From positions 1 through 36,481 of the forward strand of contig JAOPXN010000100.1 in the NCBI GenBank assembly GCA_025965155.1: 36,481 bases of DNA, read 5' to 3'. Below are positions 29,680 through 35,450 of the stretch, piece by piece. Source of the DNA: Propionibacteriaceae bacterium. GTDB lineage: Bacteria > Actinomycetota > Actinomycetes > Propionibacteriales > Propionibacteriaceae. Position 1 is the stretch's first letter, and the number at the start of each line of letters is the position of its first letter. The notes beneath the pieces are model-generated. The model was given only the letters and a program-made list of their open reading frames with translations, was not told the DNA's origin and made no database searches. The position numbers and the translations under genes were made by a program.

Positions 29680-31746
29680 TCAGGGCAGCTGGTGGATGGC
29701 CAGCGGCAGCACGGCGGTCGCTCCCGCCTCGGCCAGCAGCGATGCGGCCACCGTCATCGTCCACCGGGTACGAATGGTGTCGTCGACCAGCAGCACCGGC
29801 CCGTCGAAGCCGACACCCGGTCGCAGCGTGGTGGTCGCCAGCAGATCCTTGACCCGTACGGCCGAGGCGGCTTCGGCTGCTGGCGGCGGGCCGCTGATCA
29901 TCAGCGCATCAACCAGCGGCAACCGGCCCACGTCAGCCAGATGCGAGGCAACCGACCCGATCAGCAGCGGGAAGCGGCGGGACGGCATCGCCACCACTGC
30001 GACGGGCCGGTCCCAGGACCGGGCCCAGCGCCGCAACACCTCAACGGCGGCCTGCCTGATCTCGTCCGGGGCTTCCTGATCTCTTCGCCACAGCGACGAC
30101 AGTGTGTCCTGCCAACCCGGGTCGTCGGCGTACGCGATGGCCCGGCCTGGTGCGATCCCACCGATCCGGCCCTTGCGCCGGCCCAACCCGGACGCCCACA
30201 TCTTGCGGGGCTCCACGATTACATCCTGGCCGCGGAAGTATCGCTGTGCCGCCTGCACCAGGTCCGGTCCAGGCCGCAGCCCTGGCGCCGGTAGCTGCCC
30301 GTCACAGACGGAGCAGCGGCCACAGGGACCGGGGTCGGGATCGTCCAACGCGCGCTGCAGGAACTCCATCAGGCAGCCTTCACCGTGGGCGTACCGGCGC
30401 ATCAGGTCCGCCTCCGCCGCCCGCACCCGACGCAGTTCGGCCCACTTACGCTCGTCGAAGTACCAGGGCCGCCCGGTCGCCGACCAGCCGCCCTGCTCCC
30501 GGACGACCGCGTCGTCCACGGCAAGGATCTTCAGCATGGTCTCCAACCTGCCGCGCCGGATCCCGGTAGCCGCCTCCAGCGCTGGCACCGACTGCGGGGA
30601 CTCGCGCAGCGCGTCGAGCACCCGCTCGACCTGTGGTTCGTCGGGGATCCCGGCGGTGGCGAAGTAGTCCCAGATCCGCTCGTCGGAGTCCGACGGCACC
30701 AGGACCGCCGTGGCGTCGTCCAGCGCCCGGCCCGCCCGCCCGACCTGCTGGTAGTACGCGACCGGCGACGCCGGGGACCCCAGGTGGATGCAGAACGCCA
30801 GGTCTGGCTTGTCATAGCCCATGCCGAGCGCCGAGGTGGCGACCAGTGCCTTCACCTCGTTGCGCCGGAGTCTGTCCTCAAGTTGCTCGCGGTCCTGGGA
30901 CTGGCCCGAGTACGCGGCCACGTCGAGGCCCTGCTCGTTCAGGAACCCGGCGAGCCGCTCGGTCTCGGCCACGGTCAGCACGTACACGATGCCGGAGCCG
31001 GGCAGAGACTGCAACGCCTCGGCGACCCACGCGTATCGCTCCAGCGGCGTCAGGCCGGGGACCACCGCCAGCCGCAGCGAGGCCCGCGCCAGGGACCCAC
31101 GGAGGGTGACGGTGTCCTCGCCCAGCTGCCGCGCCACGTCGAGAGTCACCCGGGCGTTGGCTGTGGCGGTGGTGGCCAGCACCGGAGTGTTCGGCGCCAG
31201 CGACAGCAGCGTCCGGGTCAGCCGCTGGTAGTCCGGGCGGAAGTCGAAACCCCAGTCGGAGACACAGTGGGCCTCGTCGATCACCAGCAGCCCGCAGGCG
31301 CCCAGCAGCTCCGGCAGCCGGTTGGCGAACGCGGGGTTGGCCAGCCGTTCCGGTGAGATGAGCAACACGTCGAGCTGGTCGGCCCGGATGGCGGCGAACA
31401 CCTCAGGCCAGTCGTCGACGTTGGTGGAGTTGATGGTGGCGGCTCGCAGCCCGGCACGCTCGGCCGCCGAGATCTGGTCCCGCATCAGGGCGAGCAGCGG
31501 CGAGACCACCAGCGTGGGCCCGGCCCCACCGGCACGGAGCGCCGCGGTGGCGCCCCAGTAGACGGCGGACTTTCCCCAGCCCGTCGCCTGCACCACCAGG
31601 ACTCGCTGCCGCTCCTCGACCAGGTGCCGAACGGCGCTGATCTGGTCCGGCCGCGGCCGGGCATCAGGCCCGGCGACTGCGGCGATGGTCTGGCTGAGAT
31701 AGCTAGCGCTGGTGTCCGACACGCCAGCCATCATCTCCCCCGGCAC
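29680..31746 (-). CDS. recQ: RecQ-type DNA helicase fused to a phosphoribosyltransferase-like domain
   Basis: A 688-residue superfamily 2 helicase. RecQ parts: motif 0 around RPRPDQISAVRHLV, Walker A QATGWGKSA (53-61), DEAH box VIDEAHCVSDWGFDFRPDY (DEAH 157-160), LATTATAN motif III, the QQVGRAGRALDD motif VI, and a RecQ zinc module with Cys in EGCLM and PCGRCSVCDG. Residues from about 490 on are not RecQ: a region with DALMISGPPP and VLLVDDTIRTRWT (651-665) resembles the PRPP loop of phosphoribosyltransferases, but the usual TGxT reads TRWT. The start is uncertain: GTG 31746 is reported; ATG 31734/31731 and GTG 31722 are alternatives, the last lying 12 bases after GGGGGAG. It follows the cysO-like gene by 23 bases and could be read through from the riboswitch transcript. 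Confidence 0.9.
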   Translation of the reverse strand: MPGEMMAGVSDTSASYLSQTIAAVAGPDARPRPDQISAVRHLVEERQRVLVVQATGWGKSAVYWGATAALRAGGAGPTLVVSPLLALMRDQISAAERAGLRAATINSTNVDDWPEVFAAIRADQLDVLLISPERLANPAFANRLPELLGACGLLVIDEAHCVSDWGFDFRPDYQRLTRTLLSLAPNTPVLATTATANARVTLDVARQLGEDTVTLRGSLARASLRLAVVPGLTPLERYAWVAEALQSLPGSGIVYVLTVAETERLAGFLNEQGLDVAAYSGQSQDREQLEDRLRRNEVKALVATSALGMGYDKPDLAFCIHLGSPASPVAYYQQVGRAGRALDDATAVLVPSDSDERIWDYFATAGIPDEPQVERVLDALRESPQSVPALEAATGIRRGRLETMLKILAVDDAVVREQGGWSATGRPWYFDERKWAELRRVRAAEADLMRRYAHGEGCLMEFLQRALDDPDPGPCGRCSVCDGQLPAPGLRPGPDLVQAAQRYFRGQDVIVEPRKMWASGLGRRKGRIGGIAPGRAIAYADDPGWQDTLSSLWRRDQEAPDEIRQAAVEVLRRWARSWDRPVAVVAMPSRRFPLLIGSVASHLADVGRLPLVDALMISGPPPAAEAASAVRVKDLLATTTLRPGVGFDGPVLLVDDTIRTRWTMTVAASLLAEAGATAVLPLAIHQLP

Positions 31747-31769: not shown

Positions 31770-32045
31770 TCAGCCGCCGGCGACGGCGGGGATGATCGAG
31801 ATCTTGGCGTTGTCGGCAACCGTGGCGTCGAGGCCACCGGCGAAGCGGACGTCCTCGTCGCCGACGTAGATGTTGACGAAGCGGCGCAGCGCGCCGGTGT
31901 CGTCCAGCACCCGGGCCCGGATGCCGGGGTGGTTGGCCTCCAGCGACTCCAGCACCTCCGCCAGCGTCGAGCCGTCGGCGGTCACCTCGTTTGCTCCGCC
32001 GGTGTAGTTGCGAAGGATGGTGGGGATGCGGACAGATGCGCTCAT
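31770..32045 (-). CDS. cysO: CysO/MoaD-family sulphur carrier protein
   Basis: A 91-residue ubiquitin-like protein ending in Gly-Gly (PAVAGG), as needed for adenylation and thiocarboxylation by an MoeZ/MoeB-type enzyme. Its sequence closely follows mycobacterial CysO: SVRIPTILRNYTGG at the start, LEANHPGI in the middle and FVNIYVGDEDVRFAGG before the tail. CysO-COSH donates sulphur for cysteine synthesis by CysM in Mycobacterium. Here neither cysM nor the releasing protease Mec is adjacent. Instead the ATG overlaps the stop of the threonine-synthase-like gene by four bases (ATGA). The pair is behind a SAM-I riboswitch, which points to sulphur transfer for methionine rather than to threonine or molybdopterin synthesis (inference). 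Confidence 0.92.
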   Translation of the reverse strand: MSASVRIPTILRNYTGGANEVTADGSTLAEVLESLEANHPGIRARVLDDTGALRRFVNIYVGDEDVRFAGGLDATVADNAKISIIPAVAGG

Positions 32046-33328
32046 GCTTGGTATTCCTTCCAGAAGTCGGCGAACGCCTCGTAGCGCGGCGCGATCGTCA
32101 CCTTGGGGCCGACCTTGTCGGCCACCGCGTCGAGGGTCTTGAGTCCGTCACCGGAGTTGATCACCACGGTCTCGGCGCCGGGGTCGAGCACGCCGTCCTT
32201 GATCAGCTTCGCGGTCACGCCGATGGTCACCCCGCCCGCGGTCTCGGCGAAGATGCCTTCGGTCCGGGCCAGCCGCTGGATGTTCTCCACCACTATGACG
32301 TCATCGACGTCGGCGATCAGGCCGCCGGTCCGGCGTACCACGTCGAGTACATACGGGCCGTCGGCCGGGTTTCCGATGGCGAGCGACTTGGCGATGGTGT
32401 CCGGCTTGACCGGGGCGACCACGTCGTGGCCGGCGCGGAACGCCTGCGCGATGGGCGAGCAGCCGGTGGCCTGGGCGCCGAAGATCTTGACCGGCTTGTC
32501 CTCGACCAGGCCAAGCTTGATCAACTCGGCGATGCCCTTGTCGATCTTGGTCAGCTGGGATCCGGAGGCGACCGGGATGACGATCTGGTCCGGCAGCCGC
32601 CAGCCGAGCTGCTCGGCGATCTCGTACGCCAAGGTCTTGGAACCCTCGGCGTAGTAAGGGCGGACGTTGACGTTGACGAAGGCCCAACCCTCTTCCTCGC
32701 CCGCGATCTCGCTGGCGAGCTTGTTGACGTCATCGTAGGTGCCTTCGATGGCGATCAGCGTGGTGTCGTAGACCGCCGACGCGATGATCTTCTGCTTCTC
32801 GAGGTTCTCCGGCACGAACACCACCGACTTGATGCCAGCCCGCGCGGCCGCGGCTGCGACGGCGTTGGCAAGGTTGCCGGTGGACGGGCAGGCAAGCACC
32901 TTCAGACCGAGCTCGCGAGCGGCGGACAGTGCCACCGCGACAACCCGGTCCTTGAAGGAGTGGGTCGGGTTGCCGGAGTCGTCCTTGACCCACAGCTTCT
33001 TCAACCCGAGGTCGGCGGCGAGGTTGCCTGCGTCGACCAGTCGGGTGAAGCCGGGGTCCGTGGACGGAAAGCTGGCGATGTCAGCGGGCACCGGCAGCAG
33101 CGGCGCGTACCGCCAGATGCTCTTCGGACCGGACTCGAGCTGCGCCCGGGTGATGCTCGGGAACTCGTATCCCACCTCCAGCGGGCCGAAACACTCCATA
33201 CAGGCGTAGAACGGGCCGAGCGGGCTTTGCGCGCCGCAGGCCCGGCAGACCAGATGGGTGGCGTTGCCGAAGGCGCCGTCACGGGCACCGGTGGCGGGGT
33301 GGAGGGAGGTGTCGAACACCGCAGTCAT
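32042..33328 (-). CDS. thrC: threonine synthase family PLP enzyme, possible homocysteine synthase
   Basis: A 428-residue fold-type II PLP enzyme of the threonine synthase family, which normally converts O-phosphohomoserine to threonine. The PLP Lys126 is in NPTHSFKDR; the phosphate-binding STGNLANAVAA follows at 149-159. An N-terminal zinc-ribbon-like segment holds Cys28, Cys31, Cys43 and Cys46, which marks the longer subgroup rather than the ~350-residue enzyme of the usual hom-thrC-thrB operon. Three contextual facts argue for a sulphur role: a SAM-I riboswitch in its leader, a four-base overlap with a CysO-like sulphur carrier gene, and absence of hom or thrB. It could use O-phosphohomoserine and the carrier thiocarboxylate to form homocysteine (inference). 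AGAAGGA precedes the ATG. Confidence 0.92.
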   Translation of the reverse strand: MTAVFDTSLHPATGARDGAFGNATHLVCRACGAQSPLGPFYACMECFGPLEVGYEFPSITRAQLESGPKSIWRYAPLLPVPADIASFPSTDPGFTRLVDAGNLAADLGLKKLWVKDDSGNPTHSFKDRVVAVALSAARELGLKVLACPSTGNLANAVAAAAARAGIKSVVFVPENLEKQKIIASAVYDTTLIAIEGTYDDVNKLASEIAGEEEGWAFVNVNVRPYYAEGSKTLAYEIAEQLGWRLPDQIVIPVASGSQLTKIDKGIAELIKLGLVEDKPVKIFGAQATGCSPIAQAFRAGHDVVAPVKPDTIAKSLAIGNPADGPYVLDVVRRTGGLIADVDDVIVVENIQRLARTEGIFAETAGGVTIGVTAKLIKDGVLDPGAETVVINSGDGLKTLDAVADKVGPKVTIAPRYEAFADFWKEYQA

Positions 33329-33343
33329 CGATTCAGTCCTTCT

Positions 33344-33470
33344 TCATCTGTCTTGGTCGACTGTCGACCAAGCGGAGTTGGCACCGTGTCGTCGGACCAC
33401 CTCAGTCAAGGTAGACCTCAGCCGGTTGCCGGGGAGTCATCGGGCCGTTCCCTAATCCCCTCTGGATGAG
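33344..33470 (-). ncRNA. SAM-I (S-box) riboswitch
   Basis: In RNA order on the minus strand: P1 5' strand UCAUC (33469-33465); CAGAG (33464-33460); P2 as GGGGA...UCCCC; GGGA; GGCCCGAUGA (33446-33437); CGGCAACC (33431-33424); P3 closed by ACCG...CGGU; GGUGCCAACUCC (33385-33374); P4, a perfect 9-bp hairpin CUUGGUCGA-cag-UCGACCAAG (33372-33352); P1 3' strand GAUGA (33348-33344). Motifs and order match the S-box consensus (the P4 position as in Bacillus yitJ). The P1 3' strand directly abuts the thrC Shine-Dalgarno AGAAGGA and no U-rich terminator follows, so control is probably translational. A TAGGCT at 33484-33479 may be the -10. Confidence 0.9.
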
Positions 33471-33574
33471 CGGTCACTAGCCTAGGGTGAAGTCCGCGGC
33501 GGCGCACATCCGGGTCCGCATCATGGGAATCCCGTCCACACAGTGAGATCCGGAGCGTGGTGCAATGATGCATC

Positions 33575-34087
33575 ATGGTTCGGAAGGGATCTCGCCCACA
33601 AAACCGACGGCAGTGGGTCCGCGCCGTCGGGAACATCGTCAACCTGTCCACCCCCGCCGGTGTGCTGGTGAGCGTCCTCGGCGGCGCCCGGATCCAGACA
33701 GGGCCGCGCGGGCTGCTGCTGGCAGAAGGGTACCGGCCACGGTTTCCGGTCGCTGGAGCGTTTACGGTCGGGAACGTGATCGTCAGCCGGCAGCCCTGGG
33801 ACCTGCTCGCGCGACGGTTCCCCCAGCTGCTCGAGCACGAGGAGAGGCATACCTGGCAGTACCTCTACTGCGGGGGCCTGCTGTACTACCCGGCCTACAC
33901 GGCGTGCATGGGATGGTCGGTGCTGCGCACCGGGGACCGCGCCTCAGCCAACTTCTTCGAGCGGCGGGCGGGCCTGGCGGCCGGTGGCTACCACGAACGA
34001 CCGGCGCGTCCGCTCAGGAGCGCGGTGGGCGCTCAGATGTCGATGTTGAGGTCGATCCCGAGGCGCTTGGCCGAGCGGTTCCGCTGA
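33575..34087 (+). CDS. small protein with an HEXXH motif
   Basis: A 170-residue protein found in actinobacteria that I cannot name. It has a basic N-terminus (KGSRPQNRRQW), a strand-rich middle, then LLEHEERHTWQYLYCGG with HEERH (His88, Glu89, His92), the zinc-protease HEXXH pattern, followed by an aromatic hydrophobic stretch (LLYYPAYTACMGW) and SANFFERRAGLAAGGY, where Glu129 could be a third ligand. No signal peptide. Whether it is a working protease is unknown. The ATG at 33575 has no Shine-Dalgarno; TGCAAT eight bases upstream might be a -10. The gene is divergent from the riboswitch-thrC unit. Its 3' end overlaps the DUF3263 gene by 55 bases. Confidence 0.72.
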   Translation: MVRKGSRPQNRRQWVRAVGNIVNLSTPAGVLVSVLGGARIQTGPRGLLLAEGYRPRFPVAGAFTVGNVIVSRQPWDLLARRFPQLLEHEERHTWQYLYCGGLLYYPAYTACMGWSVLRTGDRASANFFERRAGLAAGGYHERPARPLRSAVGAQMSMLRSIPRRLAERFR

Positions 34088-34341
34088 CGGGTCGCCCGAA
34101 GCCGCCGGAGCCGCTTCACCAGCAGCGGATCCTGGGCCAGCGCCTCCGGCTTGTCGATCAAGGCGTTGAGCACCTGGTAGTAGCGGGTCGCCGACATCTG
34201 GAACCGGTCCCGGATGGCCTGCTCCTTGGCGCCGGCGAACTTCCACCACTGGCGCTCGAAGGCCAGGATCTCCGCATCACGATCGCTCAGCTCACCGATC
34301 GACTCAGCGGATGCGTGCTGTGGGTTCGAGGCAGCGACCAT
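34033..34341 (-). CDS. DUF3263 family protein
   Basis: A 102-residue cytoplasmic protein of the DUF3263 family, found across Actinobacteria and probably DNA-binding: the core LSDRDAEILAFERQWWKFAGAKEQAIRDRF (seen as LSDRDAEILAFERQWW then GAKEQAIRDRF) continues into MSATRYYQVLNALID, a helix-turn-helix-like segment, and a basic tail KRLRRLRATRQRNRSAKRLG. The ATG at 34341 is set by a perfect leaderless promoter, TACTAT then six bases. An in-frame start further upstream at 34458 would add 39 residues without resemblance. It overlaps the end of the HEXXH gene by 55 bases, tail to tail, and is divergent from the oxidoreductase gene. Confidence 0.92.
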   Translation of the reverse strand: MVAASNPQHASAESIGELSDRDAEILAFERQWWKFAGAKEQAIRDRFQMSATRYYQVLNALIDKPEALAQDPLLVKRLRRLRATRQRNRSAKRLGIDLNIDI

Positions 34342-34347
34342 GCGCCC

Positions 34348-34353
34348 ATAGTA
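34348..34353 (-). promoter_or_regulatory. -10 element of a leaderless promoter
   Basis: TACTAT on the minus strand, followed by GGGCGC and the ATG at 34341; the best TANNNT match in the window. Confidence 0.65.
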
Positions 34354-34427
34354 GGCGCAAACAACACCGGTGTCATTCAGTTCGCATTCGCCAGTCGGCG
34401 GCCCGAAGCGGCCGGAGGTACGAAAGG

Positions 34428-35450
34428 ATGGTGGCTGTGACCCTTGATGACTTCGCACCGATCGGCTGGGGCATCCTCAGCACCGGCCACATCGCCTCCG
34501 TGTTCGCCAAGGATCTGGCGATCCTCCCCGACGAAGCGCGACTGGTGGCGGTCGGCTCCCGGGACCAGTCCAAGGCCGACGCCTTCGCTCAGGAGTACGG
34601 GTTCGAGCGGGCCTATGGCTCGTACGCGGAACTGGCGAACGACCCCGAGGTCGACGTGGTCTACATCGCGTCCACCCACAACGACCACTTTCCGTCCGCC
34701 AAGCTGTGCCTGGAGGCCGGCAAGCACGTACTGGTGGAGAAGCCGCTCACCGTGACCCCGGACGAGGCGGCCGAGCTGGTAGAGCTGGCGCGGGAGCGGA
34801 AGCTGTTCTTGATGGAGGCGGTGTGGACGCGGACCAACCCGTTGATCCGCAAGGCGGCGGAGGTGGTGGCCTCCGGCGAGCTGGGCGCCGTTCGGCACGT
34901 GGCGGCCTCGTTCGGCTTTGCCTTCGACGGCGAGGAGTCGCATCGGCTGCTCGACCCGGAGCAGGCCGGGGGTGCGATCTTGGACCTCGGCGTCTACCCC
35001 GCCCACGGCGTGAACCTGTTCCTCGGTGAGCCGGACGCGGTTCTGGGGTACGGCAGCCACGCCAGTACCGGTGTCGACTCGCATGCGGCTGCCACGCTTG
35101 TCTACCTCGCCACCGCTGACCGGCCGGCAGCCACCGCCAGTGTGCTGTGCACGTTGGAGGCGACCGTCCCGACTCGGCTCGAGGTGTTCTGCACCGACGG
35201 TTCGGTCACCATTGACAGCTTCATCCGCCCGACCGAGATCTCGATCAGGCGCGGCAACGACCGGGACATCGAGCCGGAGACCGCCATCACCCAGCTGCCG
35301 GGCGGCGGTTACACCTTCCAGGCACAGGAGGTGATGCGCTGTATCCGGGCCGGAGAGCTGGAGTCGCCACTGGTGCCCTGGGCTTCCACCCTTGCCACGA
35401 TGCGCACGCTGGCTGCCTGGCGTGAGGCTGTGGACAAAGGCGTGGCCTGA
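34428..35450 (+). CDS. Gfo/Idh/MocA family oxidoreductase
   Basis: A 340-residue NAD(P)-dependent dehydrogenase of sugars, inositols or their derivatives. The N-terminal Rossmann domain opens with GWGILSTGHIASVFA and VAVGSRDQSKADAFA; the catalytic Lys is in VLVEKPLTV (EKP at 104-106); the second domain begins at EAVWTRTNPL and includes ILDLGVYPAHGVNLFLGEP. The ATG at 34428 is 8 bases after GGAGGT. The stop TGA shares one base with the next start (TGATG), so it is translated together with manA. This pairing suggests a hexose or mannose-derived substrate, although close relatives include trans-1,2-dihydrobenzenediol dehydrogenases. Confidence 0.93.
   Translation: MVAVTLDDFAPIGWGILSTGHIASVFAKDLAILPDEARLVAVGSRDQSKADAFAQEYGFERAYGSYAELANDPEVDVVYIASTHNDHFPSAKLCLEAGKHVLVEKPLTVTPDEAAELVELARERKLFLMEAVWTRTNPLIRKAAEVVASGELGAVRHVAASFGFAFDGEESHRLLDPEQAGGAILDLGVYPAHGVNLFLGEPDAVLGYGSHASTGVDSHAAATLVYLATADRPAATASVLCTLEATVPTRLEVFCTDGSVTIDSFIRPTEISIRRGNDRDIEPETAITQLPGGGYTFQAQEVMRCIRAGELESPLVPWASTLATMRTLAAWREAVDKGVA

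Follow-up and report, generated by a model that had tools for sequence, protein, structure and literature searches.

The 36,481-nucleotide contig JAOPXN010000100.1 of a Propionibacteriaceae bacterium (assembly GCA_025965155.1), hereafter the window, very probably carries a metM–metO operon under an S-adenosylmethionine (SAM) riboswitch of the SAM-I type, which would make homocysteine from O-phosphohomoserine with sulfur delivered by a carrier protein. In the order of transcription on the minus strand, the unit consists of a SAM-I aptamer (RF00162; 33341–33472), metM (32042–33328), encoding a 428-residue pyridoxal phosphate (PLP) enzyme of the threonine synthase family that we predict to be a homocysteine synthase, and, directly downstream, metO (31770–32045), encoding a 91-residue sulfur carrier of the ThiS/MoaD type with a Gly-Gly end.

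A SAM-I riboswitch, a threonine-synthase-like enzyme, and a sulfur carrier in one unit

All three parts had been recognized in a sequence-only reading of the window, which set the unit at 31770–33470. Open reading frames and profile matches bear out the two genes, and an Rfam covariance match over the whole length of the model, above its gathering score, bears out the aptamer. The lower limit stands; the outer one differs slightly, as the aptamer begins at 33472. The MetM protein scores 269.5 bits against the NCBIfam thrC model TIGR00260 (cut-off 167.1). MetO ends in ...AVAGG, scores 58.9 bits against Pfam ThiS (cut-off 22.5), and aligns end to end with Mycobacterium tuberculosis CysO (chain 3dwg_C, from an entry that we take to be the CysM–CysO complex). 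The metO ATG (32045–32043) shares bases with the metM TGA (32044–32042), and this ATGA overlap (32042–32045), also noticed earlier, suggests that translation of the two genes may be coupled.

Threonine, methionine, and cysteine genes elsewhere in the genome

The sequence-only reading had proposed a carrier-based route to homocysteine and had pointed to a second thrC, to acylhomoserine and transsulfuration genes, to MoeZ, and to a Mec-type protease as the places to look. The genome (4.49 Mb in 134 contigs, rated 100% complete) supports that proposal on most counts, with one reservation, a metB homologue, that we weigh below. A short thrC of 383 residues (TIGR00260, 288.4 bits) lies on contig C111 between hom and thrB, both recognized by eye, so threonine has its own synthase. 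The search for MetX gave no credible match: the best scored only 34.1 bits and covered 61 of 351 positions. In the class, MetX proteins score 313–448 bits, and the model's own cut-off of 500 bits was reached by none of the 197 class genomes surveyed and by no control. A search of the genome for MetA/HTS gave no match.

The sulfur-carrier machinery is also encoded. MoeZ is present on contig C107 as an NCBIfam equivalog (704.9 bits, cut-off 647), and a 366-residue frame on the same contig gives a second match to the ThiF family, a partial one. On contig C102 (locus L002, 577–3143), mec, cysO, cysM, and murI (the last assigned by eye) form a compact cluster on one strand; mec, cysO, and cysM stand together in all 20 further loci that we fetched. 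This mec, a Mec-type protease, is the genome's only match to the Prok-JAB (JAMM-type) family. Three ThiS-type carriers were found in the genome: CysO, the window's MetO, and a thiS beside thiazole genes, these assigned by eye.

From these parts a route can be proposed. MoeZ would charge MetO at its Gly-Gly end to give a thiocarboxylate. MetM would make a vinylglycine-type intermediate from O-phosphohomoserine, the phosphate being replaced by the sulfur of the MetO thiocarboxylate. The resulting MetO–homocysteine adduct would shift from thioester to amide, and Mec, the sole JAMM-type protease that the genome searches turned up, would free homocysteine.

MetM differs from threonine synthases at conserved positions

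The nearest solved structures to the window's MetM are threonine synthases (E 9.8e-47 to 3.5e-29). We aligned 173 MetM sequences, leaving out of the alignment and tree five short MetM fragments and a second copy of the window, with a comparison set of 23 ThrC (the genome's own and 22 Firmicutes relatives taken as ThrC by similarity). R223, T363, and A254 are present in 173 of 173 MetM, where all 23 ThrC have N, P, and G, respectively; T398 is found in 172 of 173, against D in the ThrC set. MetM thus lacks the canonical threonine synthase residues at the class-specific positions. These four residues presumably sit in motifs near cofactor and substrate, a placement that fits a changed reaction, and we take K126, from its motif, to be the PLP lysine.

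Among the more distant relatives, the threonine-synthase-like proteins of Firmicutes loci L062–L082 and L084, from Oscillospiraceae and relatives, share an N-terminal Cys-containing segment with MetM at 34–36% identity, and these loci have no SAM-I switch.

Distribution of MetM and of its riboswitch

Scanning GTDB genomes, we obtained 66 loci, of which 43 are actinobacterial (60–92% identity) and 23 come from Firmicutes (27–36%). The closest named matches belong to an uncultured Propionibacteriaceae metagenome-assembled genome (MAG; 92%) and to Microlunatus (86–87%). A SAM-I switch lies just upstream of metM in 43 of the 43 named actinobacterial loci, and was found at none of the 16 Firmicutes loci, out of the 23, that this search covered.

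To these we added a survey of the class, an even draw of 197 genomes in which MetM was called at E 1e-60 or better and MetX above 300 bits. MetM gave 137 matches; we discarded G007, which has a stop and is only 38% identical, and kept 136. The others are 60–75% identical to the window's MetM. MetX was found in 112 genomes, four with matches of 145–170 bits (G019, G053, G136, and G172) being counted as lacking it. Both enzymes occur in 59 genomes, MetM only in 77, MetX only in 53, and neither in 8 (Fisher p 4e-9, uncorrected for ancestry), so that 189 of the 197 have at least one. The presence of MetM in 136 genomes, 77 of them without MetX, suggests that it is a main route in the class.

The switch precedes metM in 134 of the 136 class loci, window included (98 of 98 and 36 of 38; L206 repeats the named locus L061), and both misses are gene fragments at contig ends. 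With the covariance model described below, it was absent at all 24 control loci, which comprise the thrC of this genome and the full set of 23 Firmicutes loci. The association of aptamer and metM goes far beyond what chance would give. A Prok-JAB protease is found in 132 of the 136 MetM genomes against 30 of the 61 others, and the four MetM genomes without one are 78–86% complete; this association is no proof of a role with MetM, since CysO and CysM also need Mec.

The genomes with neither MetM nor MetX are G007, G010, G014, G076, G081, G084, G140, and G150. Several are incomplete; G010 and G081, at 99–100% complete, may use another methionine route.

The riboswitch is predicted to act on translation

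The aptamer scores 64.1 bits (gathering score 44.4, E 7.8e-13) and is the only Rfam match above a gathering score within the window. Genome-wide, the only RF00162 match found, among the 150 of 321 first-look candidates that were scored, is this one upstream of metM. For a covariance model of our own we used 23 aptamers, that of the window and those of 22 named relatives. In their alignment 98.1% of cells are paired and 9 pairs show changes in both partners, values reached by 0 of 500 shuffles, with the structure predicted from the same 23-aptamer alignment, which favours high pairing. When the leader was folded as a single sequence, the complete aptamer was not recovered and the z-score was modest (−1.85), so the covariance model was relied on instead.

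Helix P1 consists of five pairs, its 5' strand UCAUC (33465–33469) pairing with the 3' strand GAUGA (33344–33348); four pairs are invariant in the 23 sequences and the fifth is held in 22. The 3' strand abuts a likely Shine-Dalgarno sequence, AGAAGGA (33337–33343, assigned by eye), which follows directly after P1 and overlaps the last 3 bases of the aptamer model. From the end of the aptamer to the start codon there are 12 nt in the window and 7–18 nt in 44 of 44 loci compared; a pattern search, which resolved 128 of the 136 class loci and not the other 8, placed the start codon 6–18 nt after the aptamer. Such a distance leaves no space for a transcription terminator, which we ruled out where the start codon was resolved, and control is therefore predicted to be translational. 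SAM binding would stabilize P1 and close the ribosome-binding site, lowering translation of metM and, through the ATGA coupling, that of metO.

Direct occlusion has been described for SAM-I switches in which the 3' side of P1 incorporates the ribosome-binding site, and over riboswitches in general such direct control is most frequent in Actinobacteria and Cyanobacteria (Barrick and Breaker, 2007; excerpt of PMC2258182). The window comes close to this arrangement, with start codon and ribosome-binding site immediately after P1, and differs in nothing essential except that its Shine-Dalgarno sequence abuts P1 and overlaps the end of the aptamer, outside the five P1 pairs.

In three of the four class genomes of genus g65 (L203, L207, and L208) the metM riboswitch was matched as two separate pieces; in the fourth (L209) the aptamer is undivided. 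The Rfam alignment of L203 gives one aptamer with a 139-nt insert. In L207 and L208 Rfam matched the upstream piece only, and a split aptamer is probably present there as well. In L207 an internal second P1-like strand (GATGAGCC) offers the 5' half another partner to close on, and so possibly an alternative fold.

Absence of metO beside metM and a possible role of CysO

A carrier lies directly downstream of metM in 97 of the 136 class loci; 3 loci are cut off by a contig edge, and the other 36 show no carrier over a stretch of 590 nt or more. Among the named loci it follows metM in 35 of 43 and is absent beside 8. The four-base overlap of metM and metO recurs in 32 of the 97. Adjacency of the carrier is the ancestral state on the MetM tree, with 7 changes (shuffled mean 38), a rough figure because the deep MetM nodes are weak. 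The 36 genomes without an adjacent carrier include 17 that also lack MetX and 19 that have it.

A carrier match elsewhere was found in 34 of these 36 genomes (weak in G015, at 1e-16), and the two without any are 84% and 82% complete. In 11 of the 36 we fetched the carrier, and in all 11 it is the cysO of a mec-cysO-cysM cluster. On the simplest reading, MetM can draw on CysO, although use of free sulfide is also possible. Nor is CysO itself universal, since 4 of the 97 genomes with an adjacent carrier have no second carrier at the same cut-off. The two carriers are distinct: with identical sequences counted once, 52 CysO group together without exception (support 0.992), apart from 127 MetO. 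The window's carrier falls outside the CysO clade, and the genome's CysO is the one on C102.

A cysteine after Gly-Gly in many MetO proteins

Of 132 MetO C-termini, 101 end in Gly-Gly, 29 in Gly-Gly-Cys, 1 in Gly-Gly-Cys-Ala, and 1 in Gly-Gly-Ala. For comparison we assembled 53 CysO (the genome's own and two fetched sets of 20 and 32), of which 35 are tailed, 13 of them among the first 21; locus L232, whose last 22 residues do not contain AVAGG, is counted as tailed. Tails are commoner in CysO than in MetO and there mostly begin with Ala or Ser. Of the 31 MetO tails, 30 start with Cys, but of the 35 CysO tails only 1 does (Fisher p 1.7e-16, uncorrected for ancestry), and it directly follows Gly-Gly in 30 of 132 MetO against 1 of 53 CysO. 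The 29 CysO that come from genomes with an adjacent MetO comprise 21 tailed proteins, 1 of them Cys-first. A Prok-JAB protease is present in all 21 class genomes with a Cys tail.

The contrast with CysO suggests a specific role for the MetO cysteine, even if slippage is a plausible origin for it. By analogy with Mycobacterium, the encoded Cys would copy the CysO–cysteine adduct and Mec would clip it; since Mec hydrolyses CysO–cysteine there, the one protease would both mature MetO and release homocysteine. The window's own MetO ends at Gly-Gly and would not require clipping. Alternatively, the cysteine could be a neutral product of slippage, a CTG duplication turning GGC-TGA into GGC-TGC-TGA, rather than a selected protease site. 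This would agree with the codons, 24 of the 29 exact Gly-Gly-Cys ends reading TGC-TGA, and with the scatter of the state over the MetM tree (17 changes, shuffled mean 26.5), and we regard it as somewhat unlikely but far from negligible: CysO also ends in Gly-Gly or in Gly-Gly plus a tail, yet is Cys-first so rarely, and 29 of the 53 share a genome with an adjacent MetO. Moreover, if a free Gly-Gly end is required for adenylation, a tail has to be removed even when it is neutral.

A wider scheme is quite possible, and we put it forward tentatively. In many Actinobacteria one set of CysO, MoeZ, and Mec would feed both cysteine and methionine synthesis; MetO would have been dropped about seven times in MetM lineages, with CysO used in its place, and elsewhere MetO would often be encoded with a Gly-Gly-Cys end that imitates the CysO–cysteine adduct, requiring clipping by Mec before sulfur loading.

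Alternative explanations

Several observations weigh against carrier-dependent synthesis of homocysteine by MetM. With 36 of 136 class metM genes lacking an adjacent carrier, a dedicated MetO is not obligatory. MetX is also present in 59 of the 136 MetM genomes, and the Fisher statistic for the two enzymes takes no account of shared ancestry. The MetM clade has a support of 0.738 and weak deep nodes, and the Firmicutes relatives in the residue comparison were taken as threonine synthases from similarity alone. The genome itself encodes a cystathionine gamma-synthase equivalog on contig C67, at 653.5 bits against a cut-off of 513. Finally, Microcystis aeruginosa has a MetM-like ThrC, with 51.6% identity to MetM of Streptomyces albulus, that is reported to show threonine synthase and deaminase activity and to fall short of a full MetM function in cells (excerpt of PMC12172450).

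This cyanobacterial activity (excerpt of PMC12172450) and the score of MetM above the TIGR00260 cut-off would both suit a second, SAM-regulated threonine synthase with the carrier as a chance neighbour. We nevertheless consider that very improbable, because a short thrC lies between hom and thrB elsewhere in the genome, several residues differ from ThrC in every one of the 173 MetM, SAM control suits methionine and not threonine, and 77 of the 136 MetM genomes lack MetX. A plain threonine synthase is rejected on the separate thrC and the residue differences, and chance neighbourhood on the recurrence of the switch (43 of 43 and 134 of 136 loci) and of the carrier (97 of 136). A more serious proposal, though still an unlikely one, is that MetM uses free sulfide in the cell and that the carrier is an accessory raising efficiency, hence its frequent absence at class and named loci alike. 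Against it stand the carrier matches elsewhere in 34 of the 36 genomes, the incompleteness of the other two, the location of all 11 fetched carriers in mec-cysO-cysM clusters, and the presence of the protease that a carrier route needs in 132 of 136 MetM genomes, though CysO and CysM alone could explain the last.

Homocysteine could also arise mainly by transsulfuration, the metM unit being minor. Plant cystathionine gamma-synthase acts on O-phosphohomoserine, and the C67 homologue might do the same; a related enzyme on contig C75 falls below its family cut-offs. The searches detected no MetX or MetA but did find a metB homologue above its cut-off, and it is for the latter that we retain plant-like transsulfuration as a reservation. 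We judge it very improbable as the main source. The only SAM-I switch found in the genome precedes metM, and a cystathionine beta-synthase equivalog is encoded on contig C101; as the searches revealed no enzyme making acylhomoserine, these genes are better explained by reverse transsulfuration, from homocysteine to cysteine.

Relation to known systems

Hasebe et al. reportedly described, in 2024 (AEM 90:e01247-24), the MetM/MetO pair of S. albulus as making homocysteine from O-phosphohomoserine. In the excerpt of PMC12172450, which cites that work, MetM of S. albulus is a homocysteine synthase, metO encodes its carrier, and a SAM riboswitch lies upstream of metM. The sequence-only reading had mentioned reports of related systems in Streptomyces. 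The window shares the ThrC-family enzyme, metO, the SAM switch before metM, and, by prediction, the O-phosphohomoserine route; it comes from another lineage, near the Propionibacteriaceae MAG and Microlunatus matches. The core route having been published for S. albulus, what had been put forward as a candidate route is not new in its chemistry, and the window is a further example of MetM/MetO; with it, a methionine route described only recently reaches a further actinobacterial lineage. In the literature searched, which did not extend to subscription papers, PMC12172450 was the only paper on MetM that we found, and we met neither metM without metO nor MetO ending in Gly-Gly-Cys. Within that literature, two observations may be new: metO is repeatedly missing while another carrier is present, and MetO can have a Gly-Gly-Cys tail. 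Because metM genes score as threonine synthase in NCBI models, as the window's does, pathway tools may miscall methionine auxotrophy.

In Wolinella succinogenes, Krishnamoorthy and Begley (2011) are said to have found a protein-thiocarboxylate synthesis of methionine by HcyS, HcyD, HcyF, and MetY, in which a metalloprotease clips the carrier tail. The likeness to MetM/MetO would lie in the thiocarboxylate chemistry and in the clipping of a tail by a metalloprotease; that system reportedly differs in using O-acetylhomoserine and MetY and in having Ala as the tail. In M. tuberculosis, the Gly-Gly thiocarboxylate of CysO works with a PLP intermediate derived from an O-phospho amino acid, MoeZR charges CysO, and Mec hydrolyses CysO–cysteine, freeing the product (excerpt of PMC3227635). 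The window's carrier resembles CysO over its full length, as noted above, but its enzyme is ThrC-like and not CysM-like, MetO and CysO form separate clades, and the predicted substrate is O-phosphohomoserine.

Neighbouring genes

Next to the operon in the window, on the same strand, 29680–31746 encodes a 688-residue DEAD-box/RecQ-like helicase with a phosphoribosyltransferase-like stretch, LLVDDTIRTRWT, in its C-terminal part (a motif recognized by eye). Just beyond the other end of the operon, 34033–34458, also on the minus strand, encodes a DUF3263 protein (131.5 bits).

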